Part shown: in pieces, positions 16,007-55,054 of the stretch
Layout: every line of letters starts with the position of its first letter
How positions within the stretch are numbered: position 1 is the first letter of the stretch
Assembly (NCBI RefSeq): GCF_001888165.1
Contig: NZ_CP015455.1
Location: 1,606,001 to 1,670,000, forward strand
DNA: 64,000 nt
Direction: 5' to 3'
From: Syntrophotalea acetylenica
Lineage (GTDB): Bacteria; Desulfobacterota; Desulfuromonadia; Desulfuromonadales; Syntrophotaleaceae
The notes under the pieces: model-generated
Told to the model about the DNA's origin: nothing
What the model saw: only the letters and a program-made list of their open reading frames with translations
Databases searched by the model: none
Position numbers and translations under genes: made by a program

Positions 16007-16032
16007 CAGCAGTGAACTAAATTGACAGAGCA

Positions 16033-16061
16033 CTATTATCACGAAGTACCGAATAAAGCAA
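16033..16061 (-). promoter_or_regulatory. Candidate promoter of the rimP-nusA-infB operon
   Basis: The minus strand reads TTGCTT (16061-16056), a 17-base spacer and TAATAG (16038-16033). It is just past the rlmD stop codon and upstream of the attenuator hairpin, which is the expected place for the operon promoter. Confidence 0.45.
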
Positions 16062-16069
16062 GTGAAAAA

Positions 16070-17401: not shown

Positions 17402-17403
17402 TT

Positions 17404-18144
17404 CTAGTGATCCCTGCGTTGGTTGTTCAGCCAATCGAGACGGCTCCAAAGCCCGCGCAAAATGCGCACCTCCCGGTCGTTGAGCCCGGCTCTGCCGAAA
17501 ATCCTGCGAAAACTGCGCAGGATATGGTCCGGGTTCTGGGGATCCAGAAACCCGATATCGGTCAAGGTCGAACGCATGTGCTGAAACATGCCCTCTACGA
17601 CCTCCAGAGAGGAAAACGTCTTTCTTCCGCCTGTTTTTCCGATAGCCCGGGCACGGGCCCGTGCTGTTTCGTATAAACAGATCGATACCGACTGGGCCAG
17701 ATTCATCGACGGGCAGGCATCATCGGTGGGGATGGTCACAAAACGCTGACAAAGGTCGAGTTCAGCGGTCTCGAGCCCCTTGTCTTCCCGCCCGAAAACC
17801 CAGGCCACCCGTCCGCTGAAGGTGACAGAGGCAAACTCTTTGGCGGCATCGTCGGGGTGCAGAAAGTCTTCGCGATACTTGCCAAAACGACGGGTCGTCC
17901 CCATCGCCAGACGGCAATCCGACAAAGCCGATTGCAAGTCGGAAAAGATCCGGGCGCCTTCGAGAAGCGCGGAGGCCTTGACCGCCATCCTGCGCGCATC
18001 GTCACACAAGTGATCCGCAACCGGGTTCACCAGTCGTAAATCGGAAAAACCGAAATTCATCATGGCGCGACATACGGAGCCGATGTTCAACGGCCCCTGG
18101 GGTTCTACAAGCACCACCGCAACATTTTCAGATTTCATCGACAT
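17404..18144 (-). CDS. trmJ: TrmJ-like tRNA/rRNA 2'-O-methyltransferase (SpoU family)
   Basis: The 246-residue protein has the knotted SPOUT motifs: VVLVEPQGPLNIGSVCRAM at the N-terminus (motif 1, with the Asn and Arg), AWVFGREDKGL near residue 115 (motif 2) and PSMNLAQSVSICLYE near residue 145 (motif 3). This arrangement and the C-terminal extension match TrmJ, which methylates the 2'-O of nucleotide 32 in tRNA. It is followed immediately by rlmD, giving a small RNA-methylation cluster with rsmE. Confidence 0.85.
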   Translation of the reverse strand: MSMKSENVAVVLVEPQGPLNIGSVCRAMMNFGFSDLRLVNPVADHLCDDARRMAVKASALLEGARIFSDLQSALSDCRLAMGTTRRFGKYREDFLHPDDAAKEFASVTFSGRVAWVFGREDKGLETAELDLCQRFVTIPTDDACPSMNLAQSVSICLYETARARARAIGKTGGRKTFSSLEVVEGMFQHMRSTLTDIGFLDPQNPDHILRSFRRIFGRAGLNDREVRILRGLWSRLDWLNNQRRDH

Positions 18145-26579: not shown

Positions 26580-27276
26580 CCACCACCATTCCGGAAATAA
26601 TTGCGGCAGGATTATCCTCAACCAGCCTGAGTGCAGCGGCTTTTCCAATCAGCTGGGTGGCGATGCGCAGTCCCTCGGACAACCGTGGCAGCCGATGGCC
26701 GGAGGAATGCCCGTCGCTGGCGAGTATATGAACCAGGCCCGATGATACCAGATGGCAGGCGCAGGCCTGAGCGTCCGCCCCAAACCCCCCGGCAAGACTG
26801 CCGGCGGTGATCTGCACAAGGGCCCCGACCTCCACCAGGCGCGTCAGCGCCTCAGGGTTTTTGAGAATGCCGGGATTGCGCTCGGGATGCGTGATAATGG
26901 GCCACAAACCAGCCAGCCGCCACTCGAATATCGTTTGTTCCGCGTTGGCCGGAAGATGGCTGTGGGGGTACTCCAGCAACACGTAACGGGATCTGTTGAG
27001 AGTATAAAGAGATACGATATCGACGGGCAGCACCGAAGAGACATCCCCGCCAGGGAGAATATCGAGGTTTACGTTATGCTGTTGCAGGCATTCGGTCAGT
27101 AGTGCGATTTTTCGTTCGATAAGTTGCGGGGATGGAATATCGTTTTTTACATGTGGCGTGGCGACAATCGTCCGGGTTCCGTCGGCGACCGCGATGCGCG
27201 CCATGGCCAGAGACTCCTCCATGGACGATGCACCGTCGTCCATGGAGGGTAAAATGTGACAATGCAGATCGATCAT
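26572..27276 (-). CDS. PHP-domain tyrosine-protein phosphatase (CpsB/YwqE-like)
   Basis: The 234-residue protein opens MIDLHCHILPSMDDGASSMEES, the PHP metal-binding HCHILP motif of CpsB/YwqE phosphatases. It continues with VATPHVKND, VLLEYPHSHLP, ITHPERNP and the terminal metal site ILASDGHS. In Gram-positive and many Gram-negative capsule loci this enzyme dephosphorylates the bacterial tyrosine autokinase. It overlaps the upstream autokinase gene by four bases (ATGA), so the kinase-phosphatase pair is translationally coupled. Confidence 0.9.
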   Translation of the reverse strand: MIDLHCHILPSMDDGASSMEESLAMARIAVADGTRTIVATPHVKNDIPSPQLIERKIALLTECLQQHNVNLDILPGGDVSSVLPVDIVSLYTLNRSRYVLLEYPHSHLPANAEQTIFEWRLAGLWPIITHPERNPGILKNPEALTRLVEVGALVQITAGSLAGGFGADAQACACHLVSSGLVHILASDGHSSGHRLPRLSEGLRIATQLIGKAAALRLVEDNPAAIISGMVVDV

Positions 27277-29471: not shown

Positions 29472-29532
29472 ATCAACTCTCTGCCTCCTGTAGTATTTGT
29501 TGAATTGCACCCGGTTGGATACCTGCCCGAAA

Positions 29533-29724
29533 CCAGACTAGTTTTCATCCGGAACCGGCCCTTTTCCGCCGTGGCGGTGTCGATCCGCAGGCTTGCTTGT
29601 GCGGCGTACCGATGTACGCCTCCGCGCAACCCCTTGATTCCCTTGCCACAACGAAAAATTGCTCGTTTCCCATATGAAAACTACGCTGTATCCATCCGGA
29701 GTTTCCGGATGGATACCAGACTAG
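29533..29724. repeat. About 190-bp element bounded by direct repeats, with a palindromic end
   Basis: The sequence ACCAGACTAG occurs at 29533-29542 and again at 29715-29724. Between them the inner ends are imperfectly inverted (TTTTCATCCGGAA near 29543 and TTTCCGGATGGAT near 29702). The right end contains a 12-bp hairpin, ATCCATCCGGA / TCCGGATGGAT. A GGCGTAC/GTACGCC hairpin lies in the middle. A similar segment occurs at 42066-42120, and a relative at 54901-54947. This fills the gap between the export protein and the autokinase gene. The first repeat copy includes the export gene stop. Confidence 0.6.
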
Positions 29725-30530
29725 AAAAAACTCTCAGGAACCACAATGACATCTTCCGGCATGACAGCAGTATGCATCGGAACCTTCTCCATAACGGTCT
29801 CAACACCATCGACCTTGCGGATCAGGCGGACTCTTTTCTGGGCAGCCAACTCGGTGAAGCCACCTGCCATGGTGATGGCCTTGATAACCGATGTCCCCAT
29901 CTCGAGTTTATAGGCATCCGGTCGGTTAACCTGACCGGTGACATAAAACACCCCGGCGCGCGGAACAAAAACCCTGTCACCATCCTTGATTGGTACATTC
30001 GGCGAGGTTTCCTGTTCCTCGAGCAGGGTCTTGAGATCCACCGCAATCAGGTCATCCTGTCCGGGATTGTCCGGATTTTTTCGTTTGATGTTCACCTCGC
30101 TGCCCGCGTCGGCGGTCAATCCTCCGGCCTTGGATATCAATTCCATCAGGCTGGTCGCGCCGCTGAGTTCGTACAACCCCGGAGCCCGAACCTCCCCCAT
30201 GATGATGGCCCTTTTGCTGCGAAACTCTTCGACGAAAACCGAGACCTGGGGATAGAGAATGTATCCCTCGGACAGCTTTCGGGCTATTTTGGCGGAGACC
30301 TGGGACACGGTAAGCCCCTCGATATCCAGTTCGCCGATAAGGGGAAACAGGATGGTCCCCTTTCCGCTCACTCTGGCGGTTGTATCCAGATCGGGGTTAT
30401 CGTAGACCATAACCTTGAGCACATCGCCCTCTCCGACCCGGTAGTCCAGTTGTTCGACTGCCGCGAATGTCAGGCAGCTCAGAAAAAGCGTAAACAGCAA
30501 ACTACTCATAAAGACGAGATGTTTCATCAT
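29721..30530 (-). CDS. Polysaccharide export protein with SLBB domains (Wza-like)
   Basis: The 269-residue protein has a signal peptide (FMSSLLFTLFLSCLTFA) and then the Poly_export domain (LDYRVGEGDVLKVMVYDNPDL). Two SLBB domains follow (VSVFVEEFRSKRAIIMGEVRAPGLYE, shown in part; VPRAGVFYVTGQVNRPDAYKL). It would form the periplasmic/outer-membrane export channel. The lipobox cysteine is not well placed, so lipidation is doubtful. I choose ATG 30530 with GGAGG six bases upstream; an earlier ATG without a ribosome-binding site overlaps the barrel gene. Confidence 0.88.
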   Translation of the reverse strand: MMKHLVFMSSLLFTLFLSCLTFAAVEQLDYRVGEGDVLKVMVYDNPDLDTTARVSGKGTILFPLIGELDIEGLTVSQVSAKIARKLSEGYILYPQVSVFVEEFRSKRAIIMGEVRAPGLYELSGATSLMELISKAGGLTADAGSEVNIKRKNPDNPGQDDLIAVDLKTLLEEQETSPNVPIKDGDRVFVPRAGVFYVTGQVNRPDAYKLEMGTSVIKAITMAGGFTELAAQKRVRLIRKVDGVETVMEKVPMHTAVMPEDVIVVPESFF

Positions 30531-30568
30531 CAATGGCCTCCGCTGTGAACCCCGTTCAATAGCAGGTA

Positions 30569-31903
30569 TCAAAGGGCGAAAATCAGGCTGAGATAAACAT
30601 TGTTGCGATCATAATCATAAGCGATGTTGTTGGAGTTCCTTTTTATAAAAGTATACCCCCCGGAGAGCGCAAGCCAATTCGTCAAGGAATATTTCATGTC
30701 AAGCCCTGCGCCATAGTATTCATCAAGACGATCCCCGGAAACACCCTCGCCTCGGTAGCTGTTTCGCATATAATAGATGTTTGCGGTTGTCATCAGCTTC
30801 GGAAGAATTCTCTGAAAATACCGAACCTGATATTTCTGGGACAAGGTATAGTCTGTTTCAGCGATATCTGTTTCATTGGTCTGGCGTGTGGCATTGAATT
30901 CAATATAGGATTTTGGCGTAAACCTGTGCCGCAATTGCACTTCGGCAAGAAAATTGTCGACTTCGCCTGTATCGGAATCGTCAAAATCCTTCAGGCCGTA
31001 GCCAAAGCGGGCGCGCAAACGGGATTTTCGCGTTGCCATCCATTGCGCGCCAAGATACACCTGGTGTTCCTCGCTGTCGGAAAGTATGTTCTCGTCGTAA
31101 TCGAGAGAAATGTAGTCGTATTCGACAAAAACCGAGGTTTTCGGCAGTATCCTGTACAAAAACCGTCCTGCAAAACTGTGGTCTTCCCGCTCGCGATAGG
31201 CGTTTCGCTGGGCATCATAGCTCAAGGTATAGAAACCGTATTCCGCTTCGATGCTGGTTTTAGGCGTAATTTCGTAACTTGCCCCGGCCGTCACGAGATT
31301 GGATTTGAACTTATCCAGTTCGCGACTGGTTCCGGTGCCATAGGCATCATGGTCAAGTTCGTAAATATCGAGCACATCAAAGGAAAGACCGCCACGGAAA
31401 TTATAGCGGGCATAGGCCTCGGCGCGCTGATTGACCTGATCTTCGGAATCGAATTTGTCGTGCAGAAGGATGTCGGCCTGATATTTTCCATAGGCCTGCA
31501 GGCGGGTGGTTCCCTTGCTGCGGAACCGGCTCAATTCAAGACCGCCGGGTGCCGTATTAAGCGTATTGACACGAATCAAAGGGTAACGGCTGTTCGGCAG
31601 GACGACCCAGATGCCGGGGGTGATGCGGGTAATAAAGTCCCCTTCGCGATCGTATTCGCGATTGAAGAGATTGTCGGTATAAAAACCGCCGACGGACAGA
31701 TAAGGGTGGATATAGCCAGCCTTGCCGCCGAGCACATCGCCCAGTCGGACGGCGGTGGTTGCCTGTTCGAAGGGGCCTTCGCTGTAAATGCTGGGAGGGA
31801 CGATCTCCTGCGATTCCACGTCCGTTGCGACAATATCCGCACCCCATGCCTGACCGCCAAGCACAATCAGAAACGCCATTCCCAATATCCGTCTACCGAT
31901 CAT
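30569..31903 (-). CDS. Outer-membrane beta-barrel protein of the EPS locus
   Basis: The 444-residue protein has a signal peptide (LGMAFLIVLGGQAWGA) and a mature part built of alternating aromatic and polar beta strands such as YLSVGGFYTDNLFNREYD, SIEAEYGFYTLSYDA, TSVFVEYDYISLDYD and WLALSGGYTFIKRN. It ends in SLIFAL rather than the usual terminal Phe. This is the pattern of the surface barrel found beside Wza/Wzc genes in EPS loci. It probably forms a 16-18-strand porin that helps the polymer cross the outer membrane. SD GGGGGA precedes ATG 31903. No lipid- or sugar-binding motif is obvious. Confidence 0.82.
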   Translation of the reverse strand: MIGRRILGMAFLIVLGGQAWGADIVATDVESQEIVPPSIYSEGPFEQATTAVRLGDVLGGKAGYIHPYLSVGGFYTDNLFNREYDREGDFITRITPGIWVVLPNSRYPLIRVNTLNTAPGGLELSRFRSKGTTRLQAYGKYQADILLHDKFDSEDQVNQRAEAYARYNFRGGLSFDVLDIYELDHDAYGTGTSRELDKFKSNLVTAGASYEITPKTSIEAEYGFYTLSYDAQRNAYREREDHSFAGRFLYRILPKTSVFVEYDYISLDYDENILSDSEEHQVYLGAQWMATRKSRLRARFGYGLKDFDDSDTGEVDNFLAEVQLRHRFTPKSYIEFNATRQTNETDIAETDYTLSQKYQVRYFQRILPKLMTTANIYYMRNSYRGEGVSGDRLDEYYGAGLDMKYSLTNWLALSGGYTFIKRNSNNIAYDYDRNNVYLSLIFAL

Positions 31904-32075
31904 CGCATCCCCCTTTGCATCATCAGTCTGCATCCGGAAACCCCGGATCTTTTGTAACCTCCAAAGCCTGTCAGGAATTACACACCTGCTAAAATGCTAG
32001 CAAAAACCGTCGGAAAGTCTATTACCCGCGCCGCCGACCCTAGCCCTTCACAATTCCTGAAAACGTCCAATCGAT

Positions 32076-34025
32076 TTATACAGGCGAATCCGGATTTTTC
32101 CTCGCCGCCAGATTGAAGTTCGCCGATCTTGTCGACGGGTTCCCTTCATCCAGTATCCCTGTGGCACTGTGGTTACAATATTCGGGCACCAATTCCTTGA
32201 GCAGGGCTACCACCCGTTCGACATCAGCCTCATGGGTTGCCTGGAGCAGCAGGGCGGTTTCGTCTCTGAGCCACTGTTCCGAAAAACATGCCGCCTCCAG
32301 AATACGAATCTTTTCATGACGGGTCGCCTTGACACCCTCTCCGGAAATGAGCAGTTCTTCATAGAGTTTTTCCCCGGGTCGCAGGCCGGTGAAAACAATT
32401 TCGATCTCCTCGTAGGGTTTGCGCCCCGAAAGCCGGATCATTTCTTCAGCCAGACAGACGATCTTGACCGGATCACCCATGTCCAGAAGGAAAATCTCTC
32501 CCCCCTGCCCCATGCACCCGGCCTGAAGAACCAGCTGTACCGCCTCCGGTATGGTCATGAAAAAACGGGTAATTTCCGGATGAGTTACGGTAACCGGCCC
32601 ACCTCTGAGAATCTGCTCCCGGAAAGTCGGTATGACGCTGCCATGACTGCCCAGAACATTGCCGAACCGAACGGTAACCGCTCTGGTTTCCCCGGAACGC
32701 GGCAGATTCTGTACGTAGAGTTCGGCAACCCGCTTGGTGGCCCCCATGATATTGGTCGGATTGACCGCTTTGTCCGTGGAAATCAGAACGAAATGTTCAA
32801 CGCCCCCCGCCAGACTTGCATCGACGATATTCCTGGTTCCGAAAACATTATTTTTAACCACTTCGACCGGATTGACCTCGGACATCGGGACATGCTTATA
32901 GGCCGCCGCATGAAACACGACCTGGGGTTTGTACCGGGAAAAAACCGCTGAGACTCTCTCCATATCCCGGATATCACTGAGGCTGGGAAGCAGGGAAAGA
33001 CGGGGAAATTTTTCCCGCAGTTCGTTTTCGAGGTGAAACAAGGGGGTTTCGGCATTTTCGAAAAGAATCAGCTGCGCCGGGTCGAAATTTGCAACCTGCC
33101 GGCAGATTTCGCTACCGATACTGCCCGCGGCGCCCGTGACCAGAATGGACTTGCCGTGGAGATAAGCGTTGATTTCCCGCACATCGAGGCGAATGGGGGA
33201 TCGGCCGAGCAGATCTTCGAGGCACACGGAACGGCATTGTTCCATGGAAACCCTGCCGTCGATGATGTCGCCGAGGGTTGGCAGTATTTTGCAAGCGATA
33301 CCGTGTCGCTTGCAAGAGGTGGCGATCTCGCGTAAATCCCGGGGTGTCACGGAAGACTGGGCAACCACAACCATATCGACCCCGTGACGGGTGCAGATCT
33401 TTTCGAGGTCATCCTGGGTGCCCATCACCGGCACGCCATAGAAGACTTTCCCCTGACGCCGGATATCGTTGTCGATATACCCCAGCACCGCTTTGTCGAG
33501 TTTGGGATTTTCACGGATCTCGCGAACGATCGTCTGGGCGACAGTCCCGGAACCGACGATCAGAACCGACTTGTGCCTGGAGTTATAGCCTTTGGAGTTG
33601 AGCGCGAACTGCTCGCGCAGTATGCGGGTCGCGACCCGCACACCGATCATGATGGAAAAACACAGAAGAAAATCGAGAAGAACGACCGATCGGGGCAAGC
33701 CTTCATAGGAATGGAAAAACACCACATACAGGACCAAAGCCACAGAAGCCGCGATATTGGCTTTGAAAATCTGCAGCAGGTCCGGCATGGAAACGTAGCG
33801 CCACCACCCCTCGGCAAGCCCCATGAGCCAGAAAACAGGCAGTTTGATGAGTACCACAATGGGCAGCAGCGTTACGATCACCGACCAGTATTCGGCAGGT
33901 ATCCTCAGATCGAATCGCAGCGCGAATGCATCTACAAAAGAGAAGACTATCGCTCCGATGTGAAAGAGCAAAATCAGAAGCTTGCGGACGCCGGTTTTTT
34001 GAAATGGCAAAGGAAGGCTCAACAT
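32076..34025 (-). CDS. WbpM/CapD-type nucleoside-diphosphate-sugar 4,6-dehydratase (membrane-anchored)
   Basis: The 649-residue protein has four N-terminal membrane helices and a CoA-binding-like Rossmann domain (VLIVGSGTVAQTIVREI). The short-chain dehydrogenase catalytic domain starts at ILVTGAAGSIGSEICRQ near residue 300, with the active-site region STDKAVNPTNIMGATKR, where Met replaces the usual Tyr as in FlaA1/WbpM. It makes 4-keto-6-deoxy sugar nucleotides used by the aminotransferase encoded next door, giving amino sugars of the QuiNAc or bacillosamine kind. SD AGGAGG precedes the ATG. Confidence 0.9.
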   Translation of the reverse strand: MLSLPLPFQKTGVRKLLILLFHIGAIVFSFVDAFALRFDLRIPAEYWSVIVTLLPIVVLIKLPVFWLMGLAEGWWRYVSMPDLLQIFKANIAASVALVLYVVFFHSYEGLPRSVVLLDFLLCFSIMIGVRVATRILREQFALNSKGYNSRHKSVLIVGSGTVAQTIVREIRENPKLDKAVLGYIDNDIRRQGKVFYGVPVMGTQDDLEKICTRHGVDMVVVAQSSVTPRDLREIATSCKRHGIACKILPTLGDIIDGRVSMEQCRSVCLEDLLGRSPIRLDVREINAYLHGKSILVTGAAGSIGSEICRQVANFDPAQLILFENAETPLFHLENELREKFPRLSLLPSLSDIRDMERVSAVFSRYKPQVVFHAAAYKHVPMSEVNPVEVVKNNVFGTRNIVDASLAGGVEHFVLISTDKAVNPTNIMGATKRVAELYVQNLPRSGETRAVTVRFGNVLGSHGSVIPTFREQILRGGPVTVTHPEITRFFMTIPEAVQLVLQAGCMGQGGEIFLLDMGDPVKIVCLAEEMIRLSGRKPYEEIEIVFTGLRPGEKLYEELLISGEGVKATRHEKIRILEAACFSEQWLRDETALLLQATHEADVERVVALLKELVPEYCNHSATGILDEGNPSTRSANFNLAARKNPDSPV

Positions 34026-44576: not shown

Positions 44577-45794
44577 CTATTCGCCCCGGGACTGCAACGA
44601 TCCATGCTCAACAAGAGCCTGCCATCTGCGCAACTGCCACCTGATCTGCGTTTCGGCATTAAAGGCATCGGCGATGAACTGCCTCGCGTTAGCGGCAATG
44701 GTTTGCTGCAAAGCGGCATCTTCCAACAGACGGCAGACAACCAAAACGATCTGTTGCATGTCTTTCGGCACAACAAAGCCGGTTACCGTGTCCCGCACAA
44801 GCTCTTCAATCCCAGGCGTAGGCGTTACCACGCACACGCAGCCGCAGGCCATCGCCTCCTTGACAACATTTGGCAAACGCTCGGAAGGGTTTTGGCTGCA
44901 GAACAGAAAGACCCGGCTGGTGCTGAACTCGGCGAAAACCTGCGCATGCTTGACATGCCCCTTGAAAGTCACGGCCCTCTCCAGCCCGAAGCCCCGCACC
45001 TGTTTTTCGAGGTTGGCCCTTTCTGGTCCGTCACCGAGCAGAACAAGCTCCACGTCGGGGCATTGTCCATGAATGGCGGAAAAAGCCTCGATGAGAAACG
45101 CGAACCCTTTGCCACTGACCAGTCGACCGGCAGTGACAATCCGTAAAGGTCGATGATTATCGCGGCAGGAAGGCACCAGCGACAGATCGATACCCCGGTG
45201 CCACACCACAATTTTGCTGCCGGGAATGCCGGCATTTTCCAGCCTGTCAAGATTGCAGCGGGCATGCGTCCACACGACATCGGCTTTTGATGCAACCTGC
45301 CAGCTTCCGTTAAAAGCCGTCAGAAGATCGTAAGCCCCCAGAAACATGGAAAGGCGGATCCGTTGGCAGAACCTTTTGACCAGGAAACCGACCATCGCCG
45401 GGTAATGTCCCCAAAACAGATGCACAACATCGGGACGGGTCTTTTCAATCTGCGTAAAGACATCAAGGGTTCTCGGTAAAAGAAACAACGTTTTCAAAAA
45501 ATGATTGATATTAAATCGTGAATTCTTAATACACCACAACAACAAAGGAATAGCAACTTGGGGGCGATGAAAAAACTGAAGAATCCCTTTTAAAATACTG
45601 AAAGAATTGGCTTTTGATATTTTTATATTTTCAAGACCGCGTTCGATTATTAACTGTTGATTGTTTGCAACCGACGGCCTTAAATTATAAACGTGGACTT
45701 CGCAATCCAATGAAGAAAGAACCCTCACATCGGAAGATGCAAATGCTTCGCTTGCTGCTGGAAATCGCATAAATATCATAGCAATTTTAATCAT
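44577..45794 (-). CDS. GT4-family glycosyltransferase
   Basis: The 405-residue protein is GT-B, with IVTAGRLVSGKGFAFLIEAF near residue 210, then ELVLLGDGPERANLEKQV and the nucleotide-sugar motif RLPNVVKEAMACGCVCVVT. The N-terminal acceptor domain carries MRFPAASEAFASSDVRVL. The N-terminal coding sequence (45480-45790) is AT-rich while the C-terminal part is GC-rich, hinting at a mosaic gene. It overlaps the polymerase gene stop by eight bases and belongs to the same transcript. Confidence 0.85.
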   Translation of the reverse strand: MIKIAMIFMRFPAASEAFASSDVRVLSSLDCEVHVYNLRPSVANNQQLIIERGLENIKISKANSFSILKGILQFFHRPQVAIPLLLWCIKNSRFNINHFLKTLFLLPRTLDVFTQIEKTRPDVVHLFWGHYPAMVGFLVKRFCQRIRLSMFLGAYDLLTAFNGSWQVASKADVVWTHARCNLDRLENAGIPGSKIVVWHRGIDLSLVPSCRDNHRPLRIVTAGRLVSGKGFAFLIEAFSAIHGQCPDVELVLLGDGPERANLEKQVRGFGLERAVTFKGHVKHAQVFAEFSTSRVFLFCSQNPSERLPNVVKEAMACGCVCVVTPTPGIEELVRDTVTGFVVPKDMQQIVLVVCRLLEDAALQQTIAANARQFIADAFNAETQIRWQLRRWQALVEHGSLQSRGE

Positions 45795-46989
45795 TCTGTA
45801 TCGCTATTTTATCTCTGGTCTCGTTTATTTTTATCGTTGCAACAAGTGTTGAAAAAAGAATCCAATGTATTTTCGAATAATATGAAACCATTCCGAAATC
45901 ATTCATAAGCAAAACAATCAATCCGGTCATCACCCAAAATATGATTTTATTTTGTTTTGTTATATTTTTAAATATTGATAAAAACAAAACAAAAAACATC
46001 CCATAGTAAAACAGAAATCCAATCAATCCATTATTGACAATAATCTCGGAAATATTGTTATGAGAATAGGTATTGAACCCGGAAACCAACCTGTATTGGT
46101 CAATGCCCCAACCCCAAAAGGGCCTTTGCCTCCAAAGATCAAATGCTCTCAATAACATAGCGGTGCGGACATCCATGCTCCCCTCGGAAACACTCCCCCC
46201 GGACAGCAATACAAACAGGTTTCTCATCCTGGAAAAATAAGGTGATTTTGCCAAAAAATAAATCAGGATCATTTCAATAATTGGAAACGAAAAAAGAACA
46301 AATATTTTCTGATTGATTTTTGAATAAATAAAAATATAAACAAAAATCATGATATTGATAAAAAATAGCAAGATAATACCTTTTCTGGATCCTGTATAAT
46401 AAATAATATAATAGCCAAACCATAAAATAAGTAAAACACTTAAAATATTACGCAGCTTATTGAATTTTTTATTTTCCGTAATGATCTCATGAAAAGAAAA
46501 AATCATGCCGACAATGAGGGCTAAAGCAAATGCATTGGGATTTTGGAGTGTAGATCCAACACGGTCTACATTTCCGTATATCATCTCGCTTCCTTGTTGA
46601 AGGCTCACAATAAAGCAAGCATAGACACACCCCGAAATAACGGCGAGTTTTATGGCATCGAGTCCTTTTTTTATTACAACAATATCTGTTACTATAATCG
46701 ATAATAGAAAAATCTGTACAACAGTCAAAAATCTCTCAAAGCCGCCAGGGTTAGAGATTAATCCAAATGAACATAAAAACAAAAATGCCATGAAAATTGT
46801 GTGATAGATTGTAAATCCAAAAATAACGAAATCTTTTCTTATCAACTTATCAACGACAAACCATACAGCGAGAAGCACTCCAGATAGATAAGATATAATA
46901 AAATTCTCACTATGAAACGAAAAGAGAATAACGCTTAATACATAAATAAATAATGGAAATTCTATATTGAATAATTTGTTTTTTATCAT
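45787..46989 (-). CDS. Wzy-like polysaccharide polymerase / O-antigen ligase, AT-rich gene
   Basis: The 400-residue protein is almost wholly hydrophobic, with about 10-12 predicted membrane helices. One larger periplasmic loop carries the Wzy_C/ligase-type signature MLLRAFDLWRQRPFWGWG, followed by YRLVSGFNTYSHNNISEIIV (with the His typical of the family). It would join repeat units into a chain in the periplasm. The gene is strongly AT-rich relative to the flanks, a hallmark of exchanged polymerase genes. It overlaps the upstream glycosyltransferase by four bases (ATGA). Confidence 0.82.
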   Translation of the reverse strand: MIKNKLFNIEFPLFIYVLSVILFSFHSENFIISYLSGVLLAVWFVVDKLIRKDFVIFGFTIYHTIFMAFLFLCSFGLISNPGGFERFLTVVQIFLLSIIVTDIVVIKKGLDAIKLAVISGCVYACFIVSLQQGSEMIYGNVDRVGSTLQNPNAFALALIVGMIFSFHEIITENKKFNKLRNILSVLLILWFGYYIIYYTGSRKGIILLFFINIMIFVYIFIYSKINQKIFVLFSFPIIEMILIYFLAKSPYFSRMRNLFVLLSGGSVSEGSMDVRTAMLLRAFDLWRQRPFWGWGIDQYRLVSGFNTYSHNNISEIIVNNGLIGFLFYYGMFFVLFLSIFKNITKQNKIIFWVMTGLIVLLMNDFGMVSYYSKIHWILFSTLVATIKINETRDKIAIQND

Positions 46990-48089
46990 AGCCCAAAGAA
47001 CCTTAAATATTGATTCACAATGCTGTCCTCTGCATATCTGGCGTGCCAATCAACGCCTTCATTCATGAGCAAATGACCATTTAAAATCTCAGCGATGCGC
47101 TCGGCCATTTCCTGGGGTTCTCCCACACGAACCAAAGCACCATACTTGCCTTCTTCCAGAATTTCAGCCGGACCAAAGGGGCAATCGGTGCTTACAACCT
47201 GACATCCACAGGCAAGAGCCTGGATGAGAGCATTTGGAAAACCTTCCCACCTCGATGACAGGACAAAAACCCCCGCTTTGCGCATGAACGAAAAGGGATC
47301 GAGAACAAAACCGGGCAGATCGACATGGTCACTTACGTCGAGAGCCTGTGCAACCTTCATCAAGGCCGCCCTGCGGGATCCCTCGCCCAGGATGATAAGC
47401 CTGCACGGCAGACGTTTCCTCACCTGCGAGAAGGCCTCGATCAGGGTTTCAAAATCTTTTTGCGCTTCCAGCCTGCCAACTCCAAGTATAACAGGGGGAT
47501 TGCCTTCCTCCAGCCAGGCGTGAGGTGCGCAATTGTGCTGTTCCGGAAGGACTGCCGGCACGACCACCGGATTCGGAATAACCGCAATGTTCTGCGGCGG
47601 AATCCGAAAATTGGCCGTCAAATCGCTCTTTACGCCCCGGGACACCGCGATAATGCCATCGGCCGATGCATACAGGGTTTGGATCAAAAACCGAAAAGCA
47701 CGTTCCCTAAGGTTTCGTCCCCGCAATTTCCGGGATACGGCATTGGATTCCCGTATAAAGACCGGATTTTTAATCCGGAAAAAAATTTTTAACAGCAGAC
47801 AGAAAATGTTCGCGTACTGCAGCGTGGTAAAGACAACGGCATGCGGCCGGGCTTTGATAAAATGAAAGAATTTCCAAAAGGATCTCGACACCCGGCGCGT
47901 TCCGAGGTCATGCAACAACACCCCCTCAGGAACCTCAGCCAGGTAAGGACCTGACAGGCTGGAAACCACCAGATCAACATCGCACCCCGCGGATATAAAA
48001 CCGTGAGCGAGGTTGAGCATGACCCTTTCAGCCCCTCCTCCCGTCAACGCGGGCAAGTAAACGATAATTCGCCTCGACTCTGTCTCCAT
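46986..48089 (-). CDS. GT4-family glycosyltransferase
   Basis: The 367-residue protein opens with IIVYLPALTGGGAERVMLNL, the N-terminal motif of GT4 enzymes. It has VILGVGRLEAQKDFETLIEA near residue 185, LIILGEGSRRAALMK and the C-terminal donor motif SSRWEGFPNALIQALACGCQV. It adds a sugar during repeat-unit assembly. Of two nearby ATGs, 48089 is preferred because GGAAAG lies about nine bases upstream; 48098 is the alternative. Confidence 0.87.
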   Translation of the reverse strand: METESRRIIVYLPALTGGGAERVMLNLAHGFISAGCDVDLVVSSLSGPYLAEVPEGVLLHDLGTRRVSRSFWKFFHFIKARPHAVVFTTLQYANIFCLLLKIFFRIKNPVFIRESNAVSRKLRGRNLRERAFRFLIQTLYASADGIIAVSRGVKSDLTANFRIPPQNIAVIPNPVVVPAVLPEQHNCAPHAWLEEGNPPVILGVGRLEAQKDFETLIEAFSQVRKRLPCRLIILGEGSRRAALMKVAQALDVSDHVDLPGFVLDPFSFMRKAGVFVLSSRWEGFPNALIQALACGCQVVSTDCPFGPAEILEEGKYGALVRVGEPQEMAERIAEILNGHLLMNEGVDWHARYAEDSIVNQYLRFFGL

Positions 48090-49452: not shown

Positions 49453-50703
49453 ATGACCCAAAAAGGCAAACTTCTGTTCCTGCTATTGGTGCCAGTTCTC
49501 ATGGCTTTTTGGTGGCTGCCGTCGATTCCCTTCTCCACACAGGACAGGCGACCCGCCTTTTGTCTGCCGCTGCGTGCGGATCCCGGCTTTTCCTCCGAGC
49601 AACTTCCAGAGGAGATCGCACCCTGGTATCACCGGTTTCTGGCGGTTCTCTACAATCCCCGGCAATACCTCAACGCCACCCTGCTGGCCAAGAGCAACAA
49701 CACCTATCATTACGGCCGCGCCCTGAATACCCACATCACCTCCATGTTGCAGGTATTCCGGATCACCGGCGACATGCGCATCCTCGCCGAGGTCGACCGA
49801 CTGGCCGAACTGATGCGCGCGCAGCTCAGGGATCGCTCCGTCCTGCGCAGAGGCGGCAATATCCATGAGACCGATGGCTATCTGAACTGGCAGTATCGCC
49901 ATGACAAAGGATACGAAGGCACGGACGTTCATCAAATGGACGAAATGCTGAGTCATGCCCTGATTGCCGCGATCGCCCGTGCCTATCAGGTCAACCGCGA
50001 CCTGGACCCGAGGTATGCCGAACGCGCCCGGTTCTGGACCGATTATCTTGCCAACCACTTCGAAGCAAAATGGCGTAAACGCAAGGGAATCCCCCGGGGC
50101 TTTCCCTTTCTGGAAAAACATCTCATCCACGTCACCATGCAGTGGATCCGCTACCACTATTACATGGCGCAGCTGACCGGAAACGAAGCGTATGAAAACG
50201 AGGCACGCCGCATGGCGGAAACGGTGCGGCGCCACATACGAAAAATTCCGGTCCGGGAAGGAACCGCGGCCATGTGGAATCACACCATGGCCGTCAAAGG
50301 GCATAACGCGCACGATCCGCAGCCTTTTCAATATGCGCGTTATACAGTACAGGCCGCGGCAGATCTCGCCAGTGAAAATTTCGATGTTTTTTCAGAGCCC
50401 GGGTTCATGGAGGACCTGGCCGCCACTCTCGCTCACTTCGTAATGAACGACCTCACTGGAGCAACCTTCGCCTTTCATATCGATGGTTCAGGTAAAAAAC
50501 GGGAGACGGCAGCCCGCTACGCCATTTCCCCCTGGGCGATGCTCGGCCGATGGTCCGACGACCGTAAAATCTTGAGCATATCGGAAAAAGCCTATTTTCT
50601 GGCCGAGGAAAACCCGGACCATCCCCGCAGGATTTACATTCCCGCCGGGATGGTTTTTTCATTGGCGCGGCAAGCGCCACCGCCATGGCGATGTCAGAAT
50701 TGA
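49453..50703 (+). CDS. Exported or membrane-anchored protein, paralog of the C-terminal module of the gene at 52159-54612; function unknown
   Basis: The 416-residue protein has an N-terminal signal anchor (LLFLLLVPVLMAFWWLP). The mature part is all-helical in appearance, with conserved blocks that recur in the second protein: NTHITSMLQVFRITGDMR, YEGTDVHQMDEMLSHAL, ARFWTDYLANHFEAKWRKRK, and PRRIYIPAG at the end. A His/Asp/Tyr-rich helical repeat of this kind suggests an (alpha/alpha) toroid such as those of polysaccharide lyases or glycosidases, but I cannot assign a family or catalytic residues. It sits upstream of the flippase gene and on the same strand, so a role in EPS modification or turnover is inferred. 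SD AAGG precedes the ATG. Confidence 0.75.
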   Translation: MTQKGKLLFLLLVPVLMAFWWLPSIPFSTQDRRPAFCLPLRADPGFSSEQLPEEIAPWYHRFLAVLYNPRQYLNATLLAKSNNTYHYGRALNTHITSMLQVFRITGDMRILAEVDRLAELMRAQLRDRSVLRRGGNIHETDGYLNWQYRHDKGYEGTDVHQMDEMLSHALIAAIARAYQVNRDLDPRYAERARFWTDYLANHFEAKWRKRKGIPRGFPFLEKHLIHVTMQWIRYHYYMAQLTGNEAYENEARRMAETVRRHIRKIPVREGTAAMWNHTMAVKGHNAHDPQPFQYARYTVQAAADLASENFDVFSEPGFMEDLAATLAHFVMNDLTGATFAFHIDGSGKKRETAARYAISPWAMLGRWSDDRKILSISEKAYFLAEENPDHPRRIYIPAGMVFSLARQAPPPWRCQN

Positions 50704-50746: not shown

Positions 50747-52078
50747 ATGATCAACGATAGCGTGAAAATCGGGTCTGGCGTCTTCCAAAGGTTCTGGAAA
50801 AAACACTTCAGAAAAGGCTCTTTTCTGCGCAACCTTTCCATTGTCATGTCGGGCACGGCGATCGCTCAGTTAATCGGCTTTGCCCTGATGCCTGTCATCA
50901 GCCGCCTTTTTTCCCCGACGGATTTCGGTGTATTCGGCTCTTACAACTCGGTACTGGGAGTCATTACGGCCATCGTCACGCTTCAATATACCCAGGCTAT
51001 CATGCTTCCCAGGGGAAAAATCGAGGCTCTGAACCTGTTTTTTGCCGCCTGTATTTCCGTAGCGGCCATCACTGTTCTCTGTCTGCTGACCGGCATTGTC
51101 GCGCCCGACATCATCCGGAACCTGATAAAGGTCGAAGCATGGTGGTTCGTGCCCCTGCTCGCCATCTCGGCCCTGGCTTTTGGCCTGCACCAGACCCTGC
51201 AGGCCTGGTGCGTGCGCATCAAGGCGTTTGCCGAAACCTCCAGAGCCCAGATCGTCCAGTCGCTGGCATCAGTGAGTATCTGGCTGATGAGCGGCCTGCT
51301 TCAGGCAGGCGCCGTCGGTTTGATTCTTGGCTCGGTAGTCTCCCAGTTCATTGCCAGCCTGAAACTCTGGAACGTGTTCAAAAAGGATCTGGACCAGGCA
51401 GGCTATTTTTTTCACTGGCACAACGTAAAAGCAACCTCCCTGGAATACCGCGATTTCCCTTTGTACTCCGCGCCACAGAACCTCATGAATGCTCTTTCCC
51501 AGGGGTTGCCGGTGTTGCTTCTGGGGCATTTTTACGGCATCGCCATCGCAGGCGCCTATGCTTTCGGCATGAAAATCCTGCACCTGCCAACTAATTTCAT
51601 ATTACGGCCTCTGCGCCAGGTACTGTTTCAAAAAGCCAGCGAAGTCGACAATCTGGGACAGGACATCCAGCCGCTGTTCGTCAAATCGACCTGCGGCCTG
51701 ATGCTGCTGGCGACCCTGCCAACCATCATCATTTTCGTCTGGGCGCCGCGCTTTTTCCCCTGGATTTTCGGCAAGGAATGGCTTACCGCGGGCATTTACG
51801 TAAGATGGCTGATCTTGTGGATTTTCATTTCGTTCAGCAATGTTCCTGCCGTATTGTTCGCCAGGATCCTGAGGCAGCAGCGCAACCTGTTTTTTTTCGA
51901 ATGCCTCATTCTCTCATCCCGGACCATCATACTGGTCGCCGGCGGCATTTACTGGGATGCTCTGCGCACTATTATCGCCTTTTCCATTTTAGGATTTCTC
52001 CTGAACCTGACCTTGATCCTGTGGATCTGGGTTTTGGTTTGCCGAAGAACTGTGATAAAGGCCGATAACGGCATCTGA
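50747..52078 (+). CDS. Wzx-type oligosaccharide flippase
   Basis: The 443-residue protein has about 12-14 membrane helices and the MATE/MOP family opening IVMSGTAIAQLIGFALMPVIS, then RLFSPTDFGVFGSYNSVLG and the helix GLPVLLLGHFYGIAIAGAYA. It translocates the lipid-linked repeat unit across the inner membrane for polymerisation by Wzy. SD GGTGGGAG precedes the ATG. It is co-directional with the exported protein 43 bases upstream. Confidence 0.88.
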   Translation: MINDSVKIGSGVFQRFWKKHFRKGSFLRNLSIVMSGTAIAQLIGFALMPVISRLFSPTDFGVFGSYNSVLGVITAIVTLQYTQAIMLPRGKIEALNLFFAACISVAAITVLCLLTGIVAPDIIRNLIKVEAWWFVPLLAISALAFGLHQTLQAWCVRIKAFAETSRAQIVQSLASVSIWLMSGLLQAGAVGLILGSVVSQFIASLKLWNVFKKDLDQAGYFFHWHNVKATSLEYRDFPLYSAPQNLMNALSQGLPVLLLGHFYGIAIAGAYAFGMKILHLPTNFILRPLRQVLFQKASEVDNLGQDIQPLFVKSTCGLMLLATLPTIIIFVWAPRFFPWIFGKEWLTAGIYVRWLILWIFISFSNVPAVLFARILRQQRNLFFFECLILSSRTIILVAGGIYWDALRTIIAFSILGFLLNLTLILWIWVLVCRRTVIKADNGI

Positions 52079-52158: not shown

Positions 52159-54612
52159 CTATTTATTTTTCATGGCATTCAGAAACAGGCCCGCAGGGAC
52201 ATAAATCCGTCGTGGCGTTGTTTCATCACCTTCGATATTCTGAAAAATCTGCGTGGAAAGGTTGACGATTTTACCGGATGCGTCCCAATAGGCCATTGCG
52301 GTAAAAGGCGAAATGACATAGAGGTCATCCGTTTGTTCGCCGCTGCCATCGATATAATAGGCGATGGCCGAGGGTGCCTTGCTGTTCAATACGTAATAAG
52401 CCGCCGTATTGGCCACGGAAGTCAGCAGACTGTCGTTATCGAAGATACTGAAATTCTCGAATGCCAGATCGGCCATGCCCTGCATGGTATAACGGGCATA
52501 GTTGGTCGGCTGGGGGCCCAGGGTGCTGCCGCCAAGTTCCGGCATGCCATGATCCCATTGAGCGGTGGTGCCCAGGGGGGTACCGACATACTCCATGTGG
52601 TTTTTGATATCCTGTGACAGGCGGACGGCTTCGTTGTAATAACCGTCTTCGCCGGTCAGCTTATGCATATAGTAGTGATAGCGGATCCATTGTACATAGA
52701 CATGGGTCAGCAGCTTGGTCAGGAACGGAAAACCGGTGGCAATCCCTTTTCTTTTGCGCCATTTGGCCTCGAAGTGATTTTTCAGGTAACCGGTCCAGAA
52801 AGTTGCCCGCTCGGCATAACGTGAATCGAGGTCCCGGTTGGCATGGAAGGCGTAGGCAAAGGCCGCGACCAGCGAGTGGCTAAGCATCTCATCCATCTGG
52901 TGGATATCGGTGCCCTCGTATCCCGCATCGTAAAAGTACAGCCAGTTCAGGTAGCCGTCAGCCTGGTAGGTCGTTCCGTTCAGGACCAGAATGGACCAGT
53001 CCTTGAGCTTGGAACGCATGATCTGGGCCAGACGGTCGATCTCGTCCAGCAGGCGCAGATCGCCGGTCATACGGAAGGCATGCAGCAGCGACGTGATATG
53101 GGTGTTGAGGGGACGGGCGTAGTTGTAGGTGTCATTGCTTTCGGCCAGGGTGGTGGCGTTCAGATACTGATTCGAATTTTCAATGGATGCCCACAGGCGC
53201 TGATACCAGAGGCGTGCCTCTTCGGGCAACTGCGCCGCATCGAAGGACGGGTTGCCGCGCAGGGACATCGGTTGGCGGGTCGCCGTGTCGGTTGTCCCCG
53301 CGTCGGAGCTTGCTTCGATCATCCCCTGAACCTGGTTGGAGCGGGGAAACTCATCCGGTTCGGCCTGGGTCCAGCGGGCCTCGACCATGAAGGTATGAGC
53401 GACACCGGCCTCCAGGCCGCTGATGGTGGCGCTGGTGGCAGTGGTGCGATGGGTGCTGCCGGTATCGACGCCATCGATCACCAGGTCGTAGCCGCCTTCG
53501 GGAAGGCCGGAGGCACTGCTCGGAACGGACCATTTCAGAACGAAGTTGCTGCCGTCCACCGTCACCGCATCCAGCACCGGCGCCGGATAGGCGTTTACTG
53601 GGATAATGCCCTGAACCTGATTGGAGCGGGGAAATTGATCCGGCTCGGCCTGGGTCCAGCGGGCCTCGACCATGAACGTATGAGCGACACCGGCCTCCAG
53701 GCCGCCGATGGTGGCGGTGGTGGCGGTGGTGCGATGGGTGCTGCCGGTATCGACGCCGTCGATCACCAGGTCATAGCCGCCTTCGGGAAGGCCGGAGGCA
53801 CTGCTCGGAACGGACCATTTCAGAACGAAGTTGCTGCCGTCCACCGTCACCGCATCCAGCACCGGCGCCGGATACGATTCCGTGGTGGGGCTCTCCACGG
53901 TATCGACGATATCCACCACCACATTGACACTGGCGGATTTGGAGCTGTTGCCCGCGGCGTCATGTGCAACGGCGTAAATGCTGTGCGTGCCGTTGTTGTC
54001 CTTGTTCAACGGAAGCGATGCTGAAAAGGTGTTGGTCGTATCGCTGCCGATAAGGGCACTGCCATTGTAAAAATCGACACGGGTCACCTTGACATTGTCG
54101 CTGGCTGCGGCGATGACGGTCAACGTCTGCTCATTGTTGACCTGCAGATCGGTCTCGGGAGAAGAGATGATTACCGAAGGAGCGGCATCATCCGTCGGTT
54201 CAGCGGCGGTCAGGGTTACGCCAGCCACATTGCTGTAATCCGAATAGTAGGTTTTGGAGCCAAGGGTGACATACCCGCGCACGCGGTAATAATACGAACC
54301 GGTTGTCCCACCGGGCGCGTCGGTCGCCGAGGCGGCACTTCCGCTGACCGCGCCGACCTGCACATACCCGCTGCTGGCCTGCTGGCTGCGTTCAATCAGA
54401 AACCCCGTAGGGGTTGTATCGGGGGAAGTCCAGGTCAGATTCACCTGGCTTCCGGTACTGCTCAAGGCAGCGGACAGGGTTACGGCCTTCGGCACCCGGG
54501 GTCCCGCATCTGACAACGCCGGAAACCCGAACTGCATCACGAGCAACAACAAGCTTGCCAGAGCGGCAAACCATGCATTTCCTGGATAGGTTGTTTTCAG
54601 GTTTTTTCTCAT
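52159..54612 (-). CDS. Large secreted FN3/Ig-repeat protein with the same C-terminal module as the gene at 49453; c-di-GMP riboswitch-controlled
   Basis: The 817-residue protein has a signal peptide (FAALASLLLLVMQFGFPALS). An FN3-like domain follows (about residues 40-145), then an Ig-like domain (PSVIISSPETDLQVNNEQTL) and two nearly identical 95-residue FN3-like repeats (about 247-341 and 342-436, starting YPAPVLDAVTVDG). The C-terminal module (about 450-817) shares blocks such as NTHITSLLHAFRMTGDLR, YEGTDIHQMDEMLSHSL and PRRIYVPAG with the gene at 49453. Such adhesive repeats plus a helical module suggest a matrix or polysaccharide-binding protein, possibly an enzyme. No catalytic motif is identified. 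ATG 54612 is used because AGAGGGA lies upstream; the leader holds a c-di-GMP-I riboswitch. Confidence 0.78.
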   Translation of the reverse strand: MRKNLKTTYPGNAWFAALASLLLLVMQFGFPALSDAGPRVPKAVTLSAALSSTGSQVNLTWTSPDTTPTGFLIERSQQASSGYVQVGAVSGSAASATDAPGGTTGSYYYRVRGYVTLGSKTYYSDYSNVAGVTLTAAEPTDDAAPSVIISSPETDLQVNNEQTLTVIAAASDNVKVTRVDFYNGSALIGSDTTNTFSASLPLNKDNNGTHSIYAVAHDAAGNSSKSASVNVVVDIVDTVESPTTESYPAPVLDAVTVDGSNFVLKWSVPSSASGLPEGGYDLVIDGVDTGSTHRTTATTATIGGLEAGVAHTFMVEARWTQAEPDQFPRSNQVQGIIPVNAYPAPVLDAVTVDGSNFVLKWSVPSSASGLPEGGYDLVIDGVDTGSTHRTTATSATISGLEAGVAHTFMVEARWTQAEPDEFPRSNQVQGMIEASSDAGTTDTATRQPMSLRGNPSFDAAQLPEEARLWYQRLWASIENSNQYLNATTLAESNDTYNYARPLNTHITSLLHAFRMTGDLRLLDEIDRLAQIMRSKLKDWSILVLNGTTYQADGYLNWLYFYDAGYEGTDIHQMDEMLSHSLVAAFAYAFHANRDLDSRYAERATFWTGYLKNHFEAKWRKRKGIATGFPFLTKLLTHVYVQWIRYHYYMHKLTGEDGYYNEAVRLSQDIKNHMEYVGTPLGTTAQWDHGMPELGGSTLGPQPTNYARYTMQGMADLAFENFSIFDNDSLLTSVANTAAYYVLNSKAPSAIAYYIDGSGEQTDDLYVISPFTAMAYWDASGKIVNLSTQIFQNIEGDETTPRRIYVPAGLFLNAMKNK
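53318..53589 (-). repeat. Tandem DNA repeat, second copy (in gene order)
   Basis: This 272-base segment is nearly identical to 53603-53874, at an offset of 285 bases (95 codons). It encodes the second FN3-like repeat of the exported protein. Few differences separate the copies (Ser for Thr, Ser for Gly, Glu for Gln, Met for Ile), which points to a recent duplication. Confidence 0.9.
53603..53874 (-). repeat. Tandem DNA repeat, first copy (in gene order)
   Basis: The first of two near-identical 272-base copies that encode 95-residue FN3-like repeats. The partner is at 53318-53589. Confidence 0.9.
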
Positions 54613-54689
54613 CGATTCCCTCTTTACGGTTTTAATCTCAACGTGAAGGTTTGAAATGCGGATTCTGTCGTCCGCCTTGTCATGCATAC

Positions 54690-54731
54690 AAAAAAGGCGC
54701 TGACCTTTTGCAAATGCCAAAGCATAGCGCC
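54690..54731 (-). terminator. Expression-platform terminator of the c-di-GMP riboswitch
   Basis: On the minus strand, GGCGCT (54731-54726) pairs with AGCGCC (54701-54696), with further pairing inside (CTTTG / AAAAG region). Six T residues follow (54695-54690). It lies about 50 bases downstream of the aptamer and upstream of the protein gene, the standard place for a riboswitch expression platform. Confidence 0.75.
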
Positions 54732-54778
54732 ACACACATACCGACTGACCTTGAGGTGTTTTCCGGTTTTAAGGATTT

Positions 54779-54852
54779 TCGGCAACCCGGCTATCCATGC
54801 GCTGGACCCGTGGCTTTGCGTGGCCGGATCTCTCCGACTTTGCCCTGAGCGA
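54779..54852 (-). ncRNA. c-di-GMP-I (GEMM-I) riboswitch aptamer
   Basis: The minus-strand sequence contains the conserved GEMM-I blocks in order: CAGGGCAAA, then a hairpin closed by a GAGA (GNRA) tetraloop (GTCGGA / TCCGGC), then ACGCAAAGCC. A second stem and the terminal receptor helix end in GGGTTGCCGA. The same blocks and order are found in the well-known Vc2 aptamer. It lies in the leader of the exported FN3-repeat protein and upstream of an intrinsic terminator, so c-di-GMP would control transcription read-through. Whether the switch is on or off with ligand cannot be told from the sequence. Confidence 0.92.
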
Positions 54853-54861
54853 AAATTTTCC

Positions 54862-54882
54862 CTATACCATCGGCACCTCCTT
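54862..54882 (-). promoter_or_regulatory. Strong ribosome-binding site with a two-codon upstream ORF ahead of the riboswitch
   Basis: On the minus strand, AAGGAGGT (54882-54875) is followed by ATG GTA TAG (54870-54862). This is a very strong initiation site for a two-residue ORF that ends about ten bases before the aptamer. It may be coincidence or a ribosome-positioning element. Confidence 0.5.
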
Positions 54883-54900
54883 ACCTCGTTTTATGGGGCT

Positions 54901-54947
54901 ACCAGGACAGGATCCATTCGGAAACTCCGGATGAAAACCAGGACAAG
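54901..54947. repeat. Relative of the dispersed palindromic repeat, in the riboswitch leader
   Basis: A palindromic core (CATTCGGA ... TCCGGATG) is flanked by direct repeats ACCAGGACAG (54901-54910) and ACCAGGACAAG (54937-54947). The core and flanks resemble the elements at 29533-29724 and 42066-42120. It lies in the 5' leader between the sigma-54-type promoter and the riboswitch. Confidence 0.5.
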
Positions 54948-55037
54948 AAATCATCTGCCTGTTCACCGGATCACAGGATTTCCCCGTATTTCTCATGAGC
55001 CCGATTTGGCGATTATTCCCTGGCACAGCAAGCCATT

Positions 55038-55054
55038 GAGCAAGCCACATGCCA
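55038..55054 (-). promoter_or_regulatory. sigma-54-type promoter of the riboswitch transcript
   Basis: The minus strand reads TGGCATG, four bases, TTGCT (55054 to 55039), an almost exact match to the -24/-12 consensus TGGCACG-N4-TTGCW, with both the GG and GC dinucleotides in place. The start would be near 55027, giving a leader of about 415 bases that contains the repeat, the riboswitch and its terminator. A gap of about 920 bases (54853-55777) surrounds it. In that gap I also see a plus-strand promoter-like sequence at 55224-55252 and the apgM terminator, but no gene that I can support. Confidence 0.65.

Follow-up and report, generated by a model that had tools for sequence, protein, structure and literature searches.

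A cyclic diguanylate (c-di-GMP) riboswitch ahead of a secreted protein gene, at the edge of an exopolysaccharide (EPS) locus, raises the question of what such an RNA controls there; c-di-GMP is best known for biofilm matrix production via protein receptors. We addressed this in Syntrophotalea acetylenica, in a stretch of 64,000 nucleotides (contig NZ_CP015455.1 of assembly GCF_001888165.1, positions 1,606,001 to 1,670,000; hereafter the window, to which all coordinates without a locus name refer), where the promoter region, leader and gene occupy 52159-55054. From sequence and prediction we describe a riboswitch aptamer, a promoter match, the gene, the predicted fold class of its C-terminal module, the EPS context, and a riboswitch-module link that recurs in other bacteria. 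The reading we consider probable is that a secreted enzyme acting on matrix polysaccharide is under direct cyclic-dinucleotide control, recurrently and through two aptamer classes; within this reading, we infer the ligand, the catalysis, the substrate and the sign of control.

The aptamer, its leader and the secreted protein

An Rfam scan of the window placed the c-di-GMP-I (GEMM-I) family RF01051 on the reverse strand at 54854-54778, with 61.0 bits (E 1.8e-9; gathering cut-off 35 bits) over the complete model (1-87 of 87). This was the sole match at the gathering threshold within the 64 kb. The GEMM-I aptamer proposed in the initial annotation is thus recovered by a covariance model, and the GNRA tetraloop noted with it is the GAGA loop of P2. 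Sequence and a constrained fold add a closing P1 helix, AUUUUCG/CGAAAAU, around the aptamer at 54775-54856(-). The aptamer lies 165 nt 5' of the ATG, with a moderately stable terminator in between. At least four RF01051 matches are present in the host genome (150 of 308 first-look candidates scored). The leader resembles the RF01051 riboswitches Vc2 and Cd1 in full-length sequence and structure, GNRA tetraloop, P1 and downstream terminator; it differs in having a promoter of the sigma-54 type and in preceding the gene of a secreted, predicted toroid protein.

The gene behind this leader, P0001, is translated from an ATG at 54612 into 817 residues (52159-54612(-)), with an N-terminus that is signal-like by eye. 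A longer reading of 858 residues from a GTG at 54735 would run through the terminator and so is less likely. Above their Pfam cut-offs are a Big_7 bacterial Ig domain (PF17957, 5.7e-15) at 53971-54180(-) and a tandem pair of FN3 units, 285 nt each (fn3, 2.4e-11, two stretches) at 53298-53867(-), in line with the exported FN3/Ig protein first described. A repeat finder reports the FN3 units as a head-to-tail 285-nt repeat with 93% identity, probably a recent in-frame duplication. The earlier label of a secreted repeat protein understates it: with the predicted toroid module at the C-terminus, the product is probably an enzyme.

Sigma-54 promoters follow the pattern GG-N10-GC, with TGGCAY and TTGCW elements. 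A search with the consensus TGGCAYN5TTGCW found one match in 64 kb, TGGCATGTGGCTTGCT at 55039-55054(-), about 185 nt upstream of the aptamer; 0.14 matches were expected and 14 of 100 shuffles contained at least one. The candidate -24/-12 promoter that had been suggested is therefore the only consensus match in the window. The intrinsic terminator, with the stem GGCGCT...AGCGCC and a run of six T behind it, lies at 54690-54731(-). It is moderately stable (-16.1 kcal/mol, z -1.06, equally stable folds in 28 of 200 shuffles), its arms are 24 nt apart, and a simple terminator scanner did not list the 54731-54690 hairpin. Of the terminator put forward as an expression platform, the stem and the T run are present in the sequence.

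We propose that the sigma-54 promoter would drive an mRNA whose leader holds the GEMM-I aptamer and the downstream terminator, and that read-through into the gene would depend on whether a cyclic dinucleotide (most likely c-di-GMP) is bound. The product would be an enzyme with a signal peptide, Big_7 and two FN3 domains acting as spacer or binding domains, and an (alpha/alpha)6 toroid as the catalytic domain of an unnamed family. Its substrate would most likely be the EPS that the cell itself makes through the neighboring Wzx/Wzy locus, and the enzyme may trim or loosen this polymer.

The most likely ligand of the aptamer is c-di-GMP. At model column 11 it has a G; this column, counted by eye on the model line, is presumably the equivalent of Vc2 G20, where GEMM-Ib aptamers have A. 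The relatives are Desulfuromonadales, to which Geobacter is close. Two papers describe GEMM-Ib as frequent in Geobacter (PMC8835794, PMC6456294), one of them with cyclic GMP-AMP (cGAMP) as the ligand (PMC6456294), which would favor an aptamer sensing 3',3'-cGAMP instead of c-di-GMP here also. Position G20 of Vc2 is described in PMC9262584 as a selectivity factor, and we take c-di-GMP as the ligand because the base aligned with it is G. This base, if so aligned, argues against cGAMP, as do the Deinococcota homologues presented below, which carry another class, c-di-GMP-II; we regard cGAMP sensing as quite improbable.

The toroid module and the exopolysaccharide locus

The C-terminal ~370 residues of the protein match no Pfam or NCBIfam family. 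The initial annotation had pointed to an unrecognized module common to another gene of the EPS locus, and this is what we find: the product of 49453-50703(+) combines an N-terminus that is signal-like by eye with a module 52% identical to that of P0001. In a broader module alignment none of the 13 members had a Pfam match at E 0.01, and of two profile searches against the PDB one returned nothing and the other, at E up to 1, a single line, a deacetylase at E 0.81. AlphaFold2 modeling from seven sequences gave an (alpha/alpha)6 toroid of 376 residues (52159-53289(-); pLDDT 80.7, pTM 0.87). Among the families in the VIA-align list, the model is most similar to the GH105 entry 4xuv (Z 17.8, 281 residues aligned, 4.3 Å, 9% identity), with which other GH105 and GH88 entries tie and from which GH76 is about one Z unit lower. 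The rows naming GH105, GH88 or GH76 span Z 15.1-17.8 over 264-284 residues with 5-10% identity. Foldseek put GH76 at the top together with a polysaccharide lyase, with GH88 13th and GH105 21st. The module is thus predicted to be an (alpha/alpha)6 toroid like the GH105, GH88 and GH76 enzymes, from which it differs by this low identity and by the lack of a Pfam match.

Eleven residues (R59, R73, D77, D111, D128, H138, E174, K176, R180, H196 and Y264, model numbering) do not vary in any of the 31 module sequences counted, as would be expected of an enzyme; the count and the tree described below omit three of 34 module stretches that are short, including that of the riboswitch-led gene in L105. 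The Ig, FN3, Calx-beta or PKD repeats found 5' of the module are typical of surface adhesins, and an MBG-repeat protein is among the riboswitch targets, so that the module could be a non-catalytic carbohydrate-binding or structural toroid in an adhesin or matrix scaffold. We find this unlikely. The invariance of acidic and histidine residues speaks against it, as do co-targets with similar N-terminal parts that bear enzyme domains (beta-helix, pectate-lyase-like), and the GH26 and GH114 proteins that are also co-targets. A published protein comes near to the proposed enzyme: Listeria Lmo1913, assigned by its authors to the six-hairpin glycosidase superfamily (PMC4125290), is likewise toroid glycosidase-like and tied to c-di-GMP and perhaps to EPS. 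Its link to c-di-GMP is an operon with cyclases and a phosphodiesterase, and no riboswitch (PMC4125290).

The setting of the gene is the edge of an EPS locus, in agreement with the earlier reading. A Wzx-like flippase (Polysacc_synt_3, 4.3e-20) is encoded between the two module genes at 50747-52078(+), and a Wzy_C O-antigen ligase/polymerase-like protein (2.4e-13) at 45787-47049(-). Genes for CpsB_CapC, Wzz/GNVR-AAA, Poly_export/SLBB, BBP2_2 and Polysacc_synt_2 proteins lie at 26572-34025(-), and the window also holds three group-1/4 glycosyltransferases, all by Pfam. Half of the window proteins scanned with Pfam (10 of 20) are of the Wzx/Wzy-dependent EPS kind or close to it, and with flippase, polymerase, glycosyltransferase, export and co-polymerase genes present we classify the locus as Wzx/Wzy-type. 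EPS genes also lie near the modules in L014-L016, judged by eye from translations.

That the pair of module genes flanks a wzx-like gene inside the EPS locus suits a different role, in which the enzyme would act in EPS synthesis, export or maturation by trimming or modifying nascent chains. c-di-GMP would then turn it on together with matrix production, and it would have no part in dispersal. We consider this account less likely than not to hold, yet well worth weighing, and its bearing on the sign of the switch is taken up with the leader folds.

Recurrence of the link and direction of the switch

A pattern-based scan of 84,980 genomes located five module loci: in Desulfuromonas sp. CSMB_57, a Desulfobulbaceae metagenome-assembled genome (MAG), two Trueperaceae MAGs and a Gemmatimonadaceae MAG. 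The scan was not exhaustive, as a phylum search later found Deinococcota genomes that it had missed. The module is rare: it was present in one of 395 genomes drawn from the window's phylum (the host itself), in one of 395 from the phylum to which the Gemmatimonadaceae MAG belongs (again the MAG itself), in two of 136 genomes of the host's order (its own and CSMB_57) and in none of five congeners, and plasmid records searched by tblastn contained no match to it at 1e-5. The CSMB_57 homologue consists of Calx-beta and the module (57% identity) and has a c-di-GMP-I aptamer upstream (60.8 bits). In the two desulfuromonad genomes with readable leaders, c-di-GMP-I precedes two of three module genes; the Desulfobulbaceae copy is near-identical, and its leader, like that of the Gemmatimonadaceae copy, is cut off at a contig end. 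The sigma-54 pattern occurs at three of the 17 c-di-GMP-I loci searched, namely the window gene, the CSMB_57 toroid gene and a CSMB_57 lyase gene.

In Deinococcota, the phylum of Trueperaceae, the module occurs in 11 of 111 genomes with 31 matches, and here the aptamers are of class II. Across 15 module-bearing genomes we counted at least 58 c-di-GMP-II matches (54 above cut-off) and at least 17 c-di-GMP-I matches (all above). These are lower bounds, with the best 150 or fewer first-look candidates scored per genome; the four c-di-GMP-II matches below cut-off were kept and are the sole basis of the leaders G524:C258, G524:C456 and G525:C194. A c-di-GMP-II aptamer lies directly upstream, on the same strand, of at least nine of the 31 Deinococcota module matches (10 aptamers, as one Trueperaceae module gene has two in tandem), at 76-144 nt from start codons chosen by eye. 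The products of all nine have lipoprotein-like N-termini by eye. Among the matches listed, genome G633 has a single c-di-GMP-II and G634 two, and all three lie 5' of module genes. A c-di-GMP-II aptamer at G525:C255 faces away from its module gene and was left out of the count. Second module genes in L103 and L104 sit downstream on the same strand.

To express this as a share of all leaders, the 57 Deinococcota aptamers were merged into 48 leaders, of which eight were excluded for contig ends or the lack of a clear gene, including four stubs of 154-313 bases (L150, L153, L155 and L156). Module genes follow nine of the 40 resolvable c-di-GMP-II leaders, the largest single class, against a chance expectation of 0.03-0.04 over all genes (30,000-36,000 genes assumed); measured against secreted genes alone, the expectation would be higher.

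In the window leader, aptamer bases 54841-54847 and 54817-54824 have a predicted alternative partner at 54718-54736(-), which uses the 5' arm of the terminator. With the leader cut before the terminator 3' arm, a partition function assigned these pairs probabilities of 0.79-0.99 each. In the ligand-free ensemble the aptamer core is paired with the terminator 5' arm, and terminator formation rises from 0.245 in the free leader to 0.965 when the aptamer is forced. The fold thus leans weakly to an OFF switch, like the C. difficile class I switches, and we slightly favor an enzyme made when c-di-GMP falls, for dispersal or remodeling, over an ON switch. In C. difficile, every one of the seven functional class I switches is of the OFF type, and a protease that releases surface proteins is repressed by one of them (PMC6366702); with the lean of the window fold, this argues against the enzyme being turned on for EPS maturation. 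An ON switch finds support in the CSMB_57 lyase leader, where the terminator as the default fold is compatible with it, and in Geobacter, where genes behind cGAMP riboswitches fall upon deletion of the cGAMP synthase, according to PMC6456294. The protease ZmpI/PPEP-1 of C. difficile is the nearest published arrangement, with a c-di-GMP riboswitch likewise placed before an extracellular enzyme acting on surface material; it is a metalloprotease negatively regulated by c-di-GMP (PMC6366702), whereas the window protein is a predicted polysaccharide-active toroid.

The CSMB_57 toroid leader has a gap of 36 nt between aptamer and start, with no terminator seen there. In the nine Deinococcota leaders, the leader's own anti-Shine-Dalgarno/Shine-Dalgarno (anti-SD/SD) duplex was better than dinucleotide shuffles in seven (at most 15 of 300 shuffles as good), and not in L099 (156 of 300) and L101 (85 of 300); compared with segments of the other leaders, the own pair was best in just five of nine. 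The platform there is probably translational, with the ribosome-binding site sequestered, although the signal partly reflects base composition. Pairing between the P1 3' strand and the anti-SD was not beyond chance in these leaders (27-259 of 300 shuffles as good), and SD access was not clearly altered by forcing or blocking P1.

Several results weigh against a switch-controlled EPS enzyme. As to the enzyme, the best Foldseek E-value is 1.7e-3, with none below 0.001, and sharing this toroid fold is no proof of function. As to the switch, the alternative pairing in the window is not beyond chance: 39 of 200 linker shuffles gave a free terminator value as low as the native one, as did 75 of 200 when all 5' sequence was shuffled, and in the CSMB_57 lyase leader there is no sign of competition, its terminator forming either way (0.988 versus 0.998). 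As to the link, no riboswitch was found by Rfam upstream of the paralogue in the 64-kb window; 22 of the 31 Deinococcota module matches, including the L015 pair, have no aptamer directly upstream among the matches listed, contig edges hiding some leaders; and in the G633 locus none of the neighbors checked is an EPS gene. A cmscan of 14 further module-gene loci likewise found no c-di-GMP aptamer upstream. Finally, the class II labels on the module tree require eight changes, with 500 of 500 shuffles as low and at least six changes forced by well-supported branches. The scatter of the labels implies that aptamers were gained, lost or exchanged repeatedly. It is also what an accidental link would give, if these genomes were merely rich in c-di-GMP riboswitches and the module merely a part of secreted proteins, and the many other targets that are lipoproteins or exported by eye mean that a secreted background would raise the expected overlap. 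The nine of 40 leaders set against that expectation argue to the contrary, and we hold an accidental link to be highly improbable.

Other genes behind c-di-GMP riboswitches

Direct control of a polysaccharide-active enzyme would gain from company among the remaining targets. Behind the c-di-GMP-II leaders we found GH26 proteins in three cases (L126, L146 and L147), Pel9A-like or other right-handed beta-helix proteins in four (L123, L124, L125 and L144), a GH114 protein in one (L127) and S8 proteases in two (L140, and L142 as the second gene). Polysaccharide-active protein types, the module included, follow 17 of the 40 leaders. For the 31 non-module leaders, the first or second gene was scanned with Pfam in 19. 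L128 resembles GH26 by eye; it has no Pfam match and was not counted. Other targets include lipoproteins and small exported proteins, judged by eye, as well as an MBG-repeat protein, a protein resembling a beta-propeller and one with a response-regulator domain. In published work, c-di-GMP riboswitches precede genes for surface proteins and for a surface-cleaving protease, and also putative chitinase and fimbrial genes (PMC6366702).

The second c-di-GMP-I gene of CSMB_57 encodes a Calx-beta protein with a pectate-lyase-like domain (PDB pectate lyase 9buj, 3e-29; NCBIfam PelZ, 8.9e-97 yet far below its cut-off). The gene repeats the sigma-54/GEMM-I arrangement, together with a terminator, and its product is 58% identical to the toroid protein over the first 167 aligned positions. 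This suggests that promoter, aptamer and N-terminal domain form a reused cassette in which catalytic domains are exchanged. The remaining three c-di-GMP-I genes of this genome encode a methyl-accepting chemotaxis protein (MCP) and a GGDEF-EAL protein by Pfam, and a CheW-like protein by eye.

Put more broadly, the secreted (alpha/alpha)6 toroid family could be a recurrent direct output of cyclic dinucleotides in polysaccharide cleavage, through class I in Desulfuromonadia and class II in Deinococcota, within a regulon that also takes in GH26, GH114, pectate-lyase-like proteins and S8 proteases, with leader and N-terminal cassette reused with different catalytic domains; we put this forward tentatively, at a little under even likelihood. 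The protein family and its cross-phylum link to c-di-GMP appear to be new, the riboswitch itself belonging to a known kind. Among the titles and abstract openings listed from open-licence PubMed Central literature, none connects c-di-GMP riboswitches with a toroid family of this kind, and no paper there links Truepera radiovictrix with c-di-GMP, both being weak evidence of absence. Two RNA sensor classes stand before one unnamed secreted family in distant phyla, beside other polysaccharide cutters, which suggests that bacteria recurrently control the remodeling of their slime matrix via riboswitch-led module genes. Should activity be confirmed, the module would found a new family of carbohydrate-active enzymes, with the cell's own EPS as the hypothetical substrate, and c-di-GMP would act on matrix remodeling directly through RNA, outside well-studied pathogens.

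Some further riboswitch-led genes were observed alongside. Mutually similar lipoproteins, by eye, follow the Deinococcota c-di-GMP-II leaders L133, L134, L136, L143 and L151, with pentapeptide repeats in that of L134 by Pfam. Two similar secreted-looking proteins of ~100 residues (L142:147-440 and L157:165-470) follow c-di-GMP-II leaders in two genomes. In the Gemmatimonadaceae MAG (G526), a lipoprotein-like open reading frame (ORF) at L122:1246-2004, cut by the contig end, lies behind the sole c-di-GMP-II among the matches listed for this genome, and has a Big_7-like stretch just below cut-off, an N-terminal type known from module proteins. At L008:4257-4332 a c-di-GMP-I-GGC riboswitch lies 5' of an ORF at 4412-5236 with only a partial GGDEF (profile 31-106 of 161), possibly a shortened cyclase gene.

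The host genome has a cluster of riboswitches at L009, with a group II intron match nearby (L009:891-959, 43.8 bits; Rfam cut-off 40). A weaker c-di-GMP-I at L009:6082-6159 (49.3 bits) is followed by a same-strand run of ORFs whose products look exported by eye; the first product, of 557 residues, has no Pfam family. A c-di-GMP-I-GGC riboswitch at L009:15823-15902 (C1, ~2.08 Mb) lies 5' of an S8 subtilase gene at 16023-17819, whose product contains a Big_7-like stretch below cut-off. This subtilase is outside the toroid family and parallels the S8 proteases behind the Deinococcota c-di-GMP-II leaders L140 and L142.

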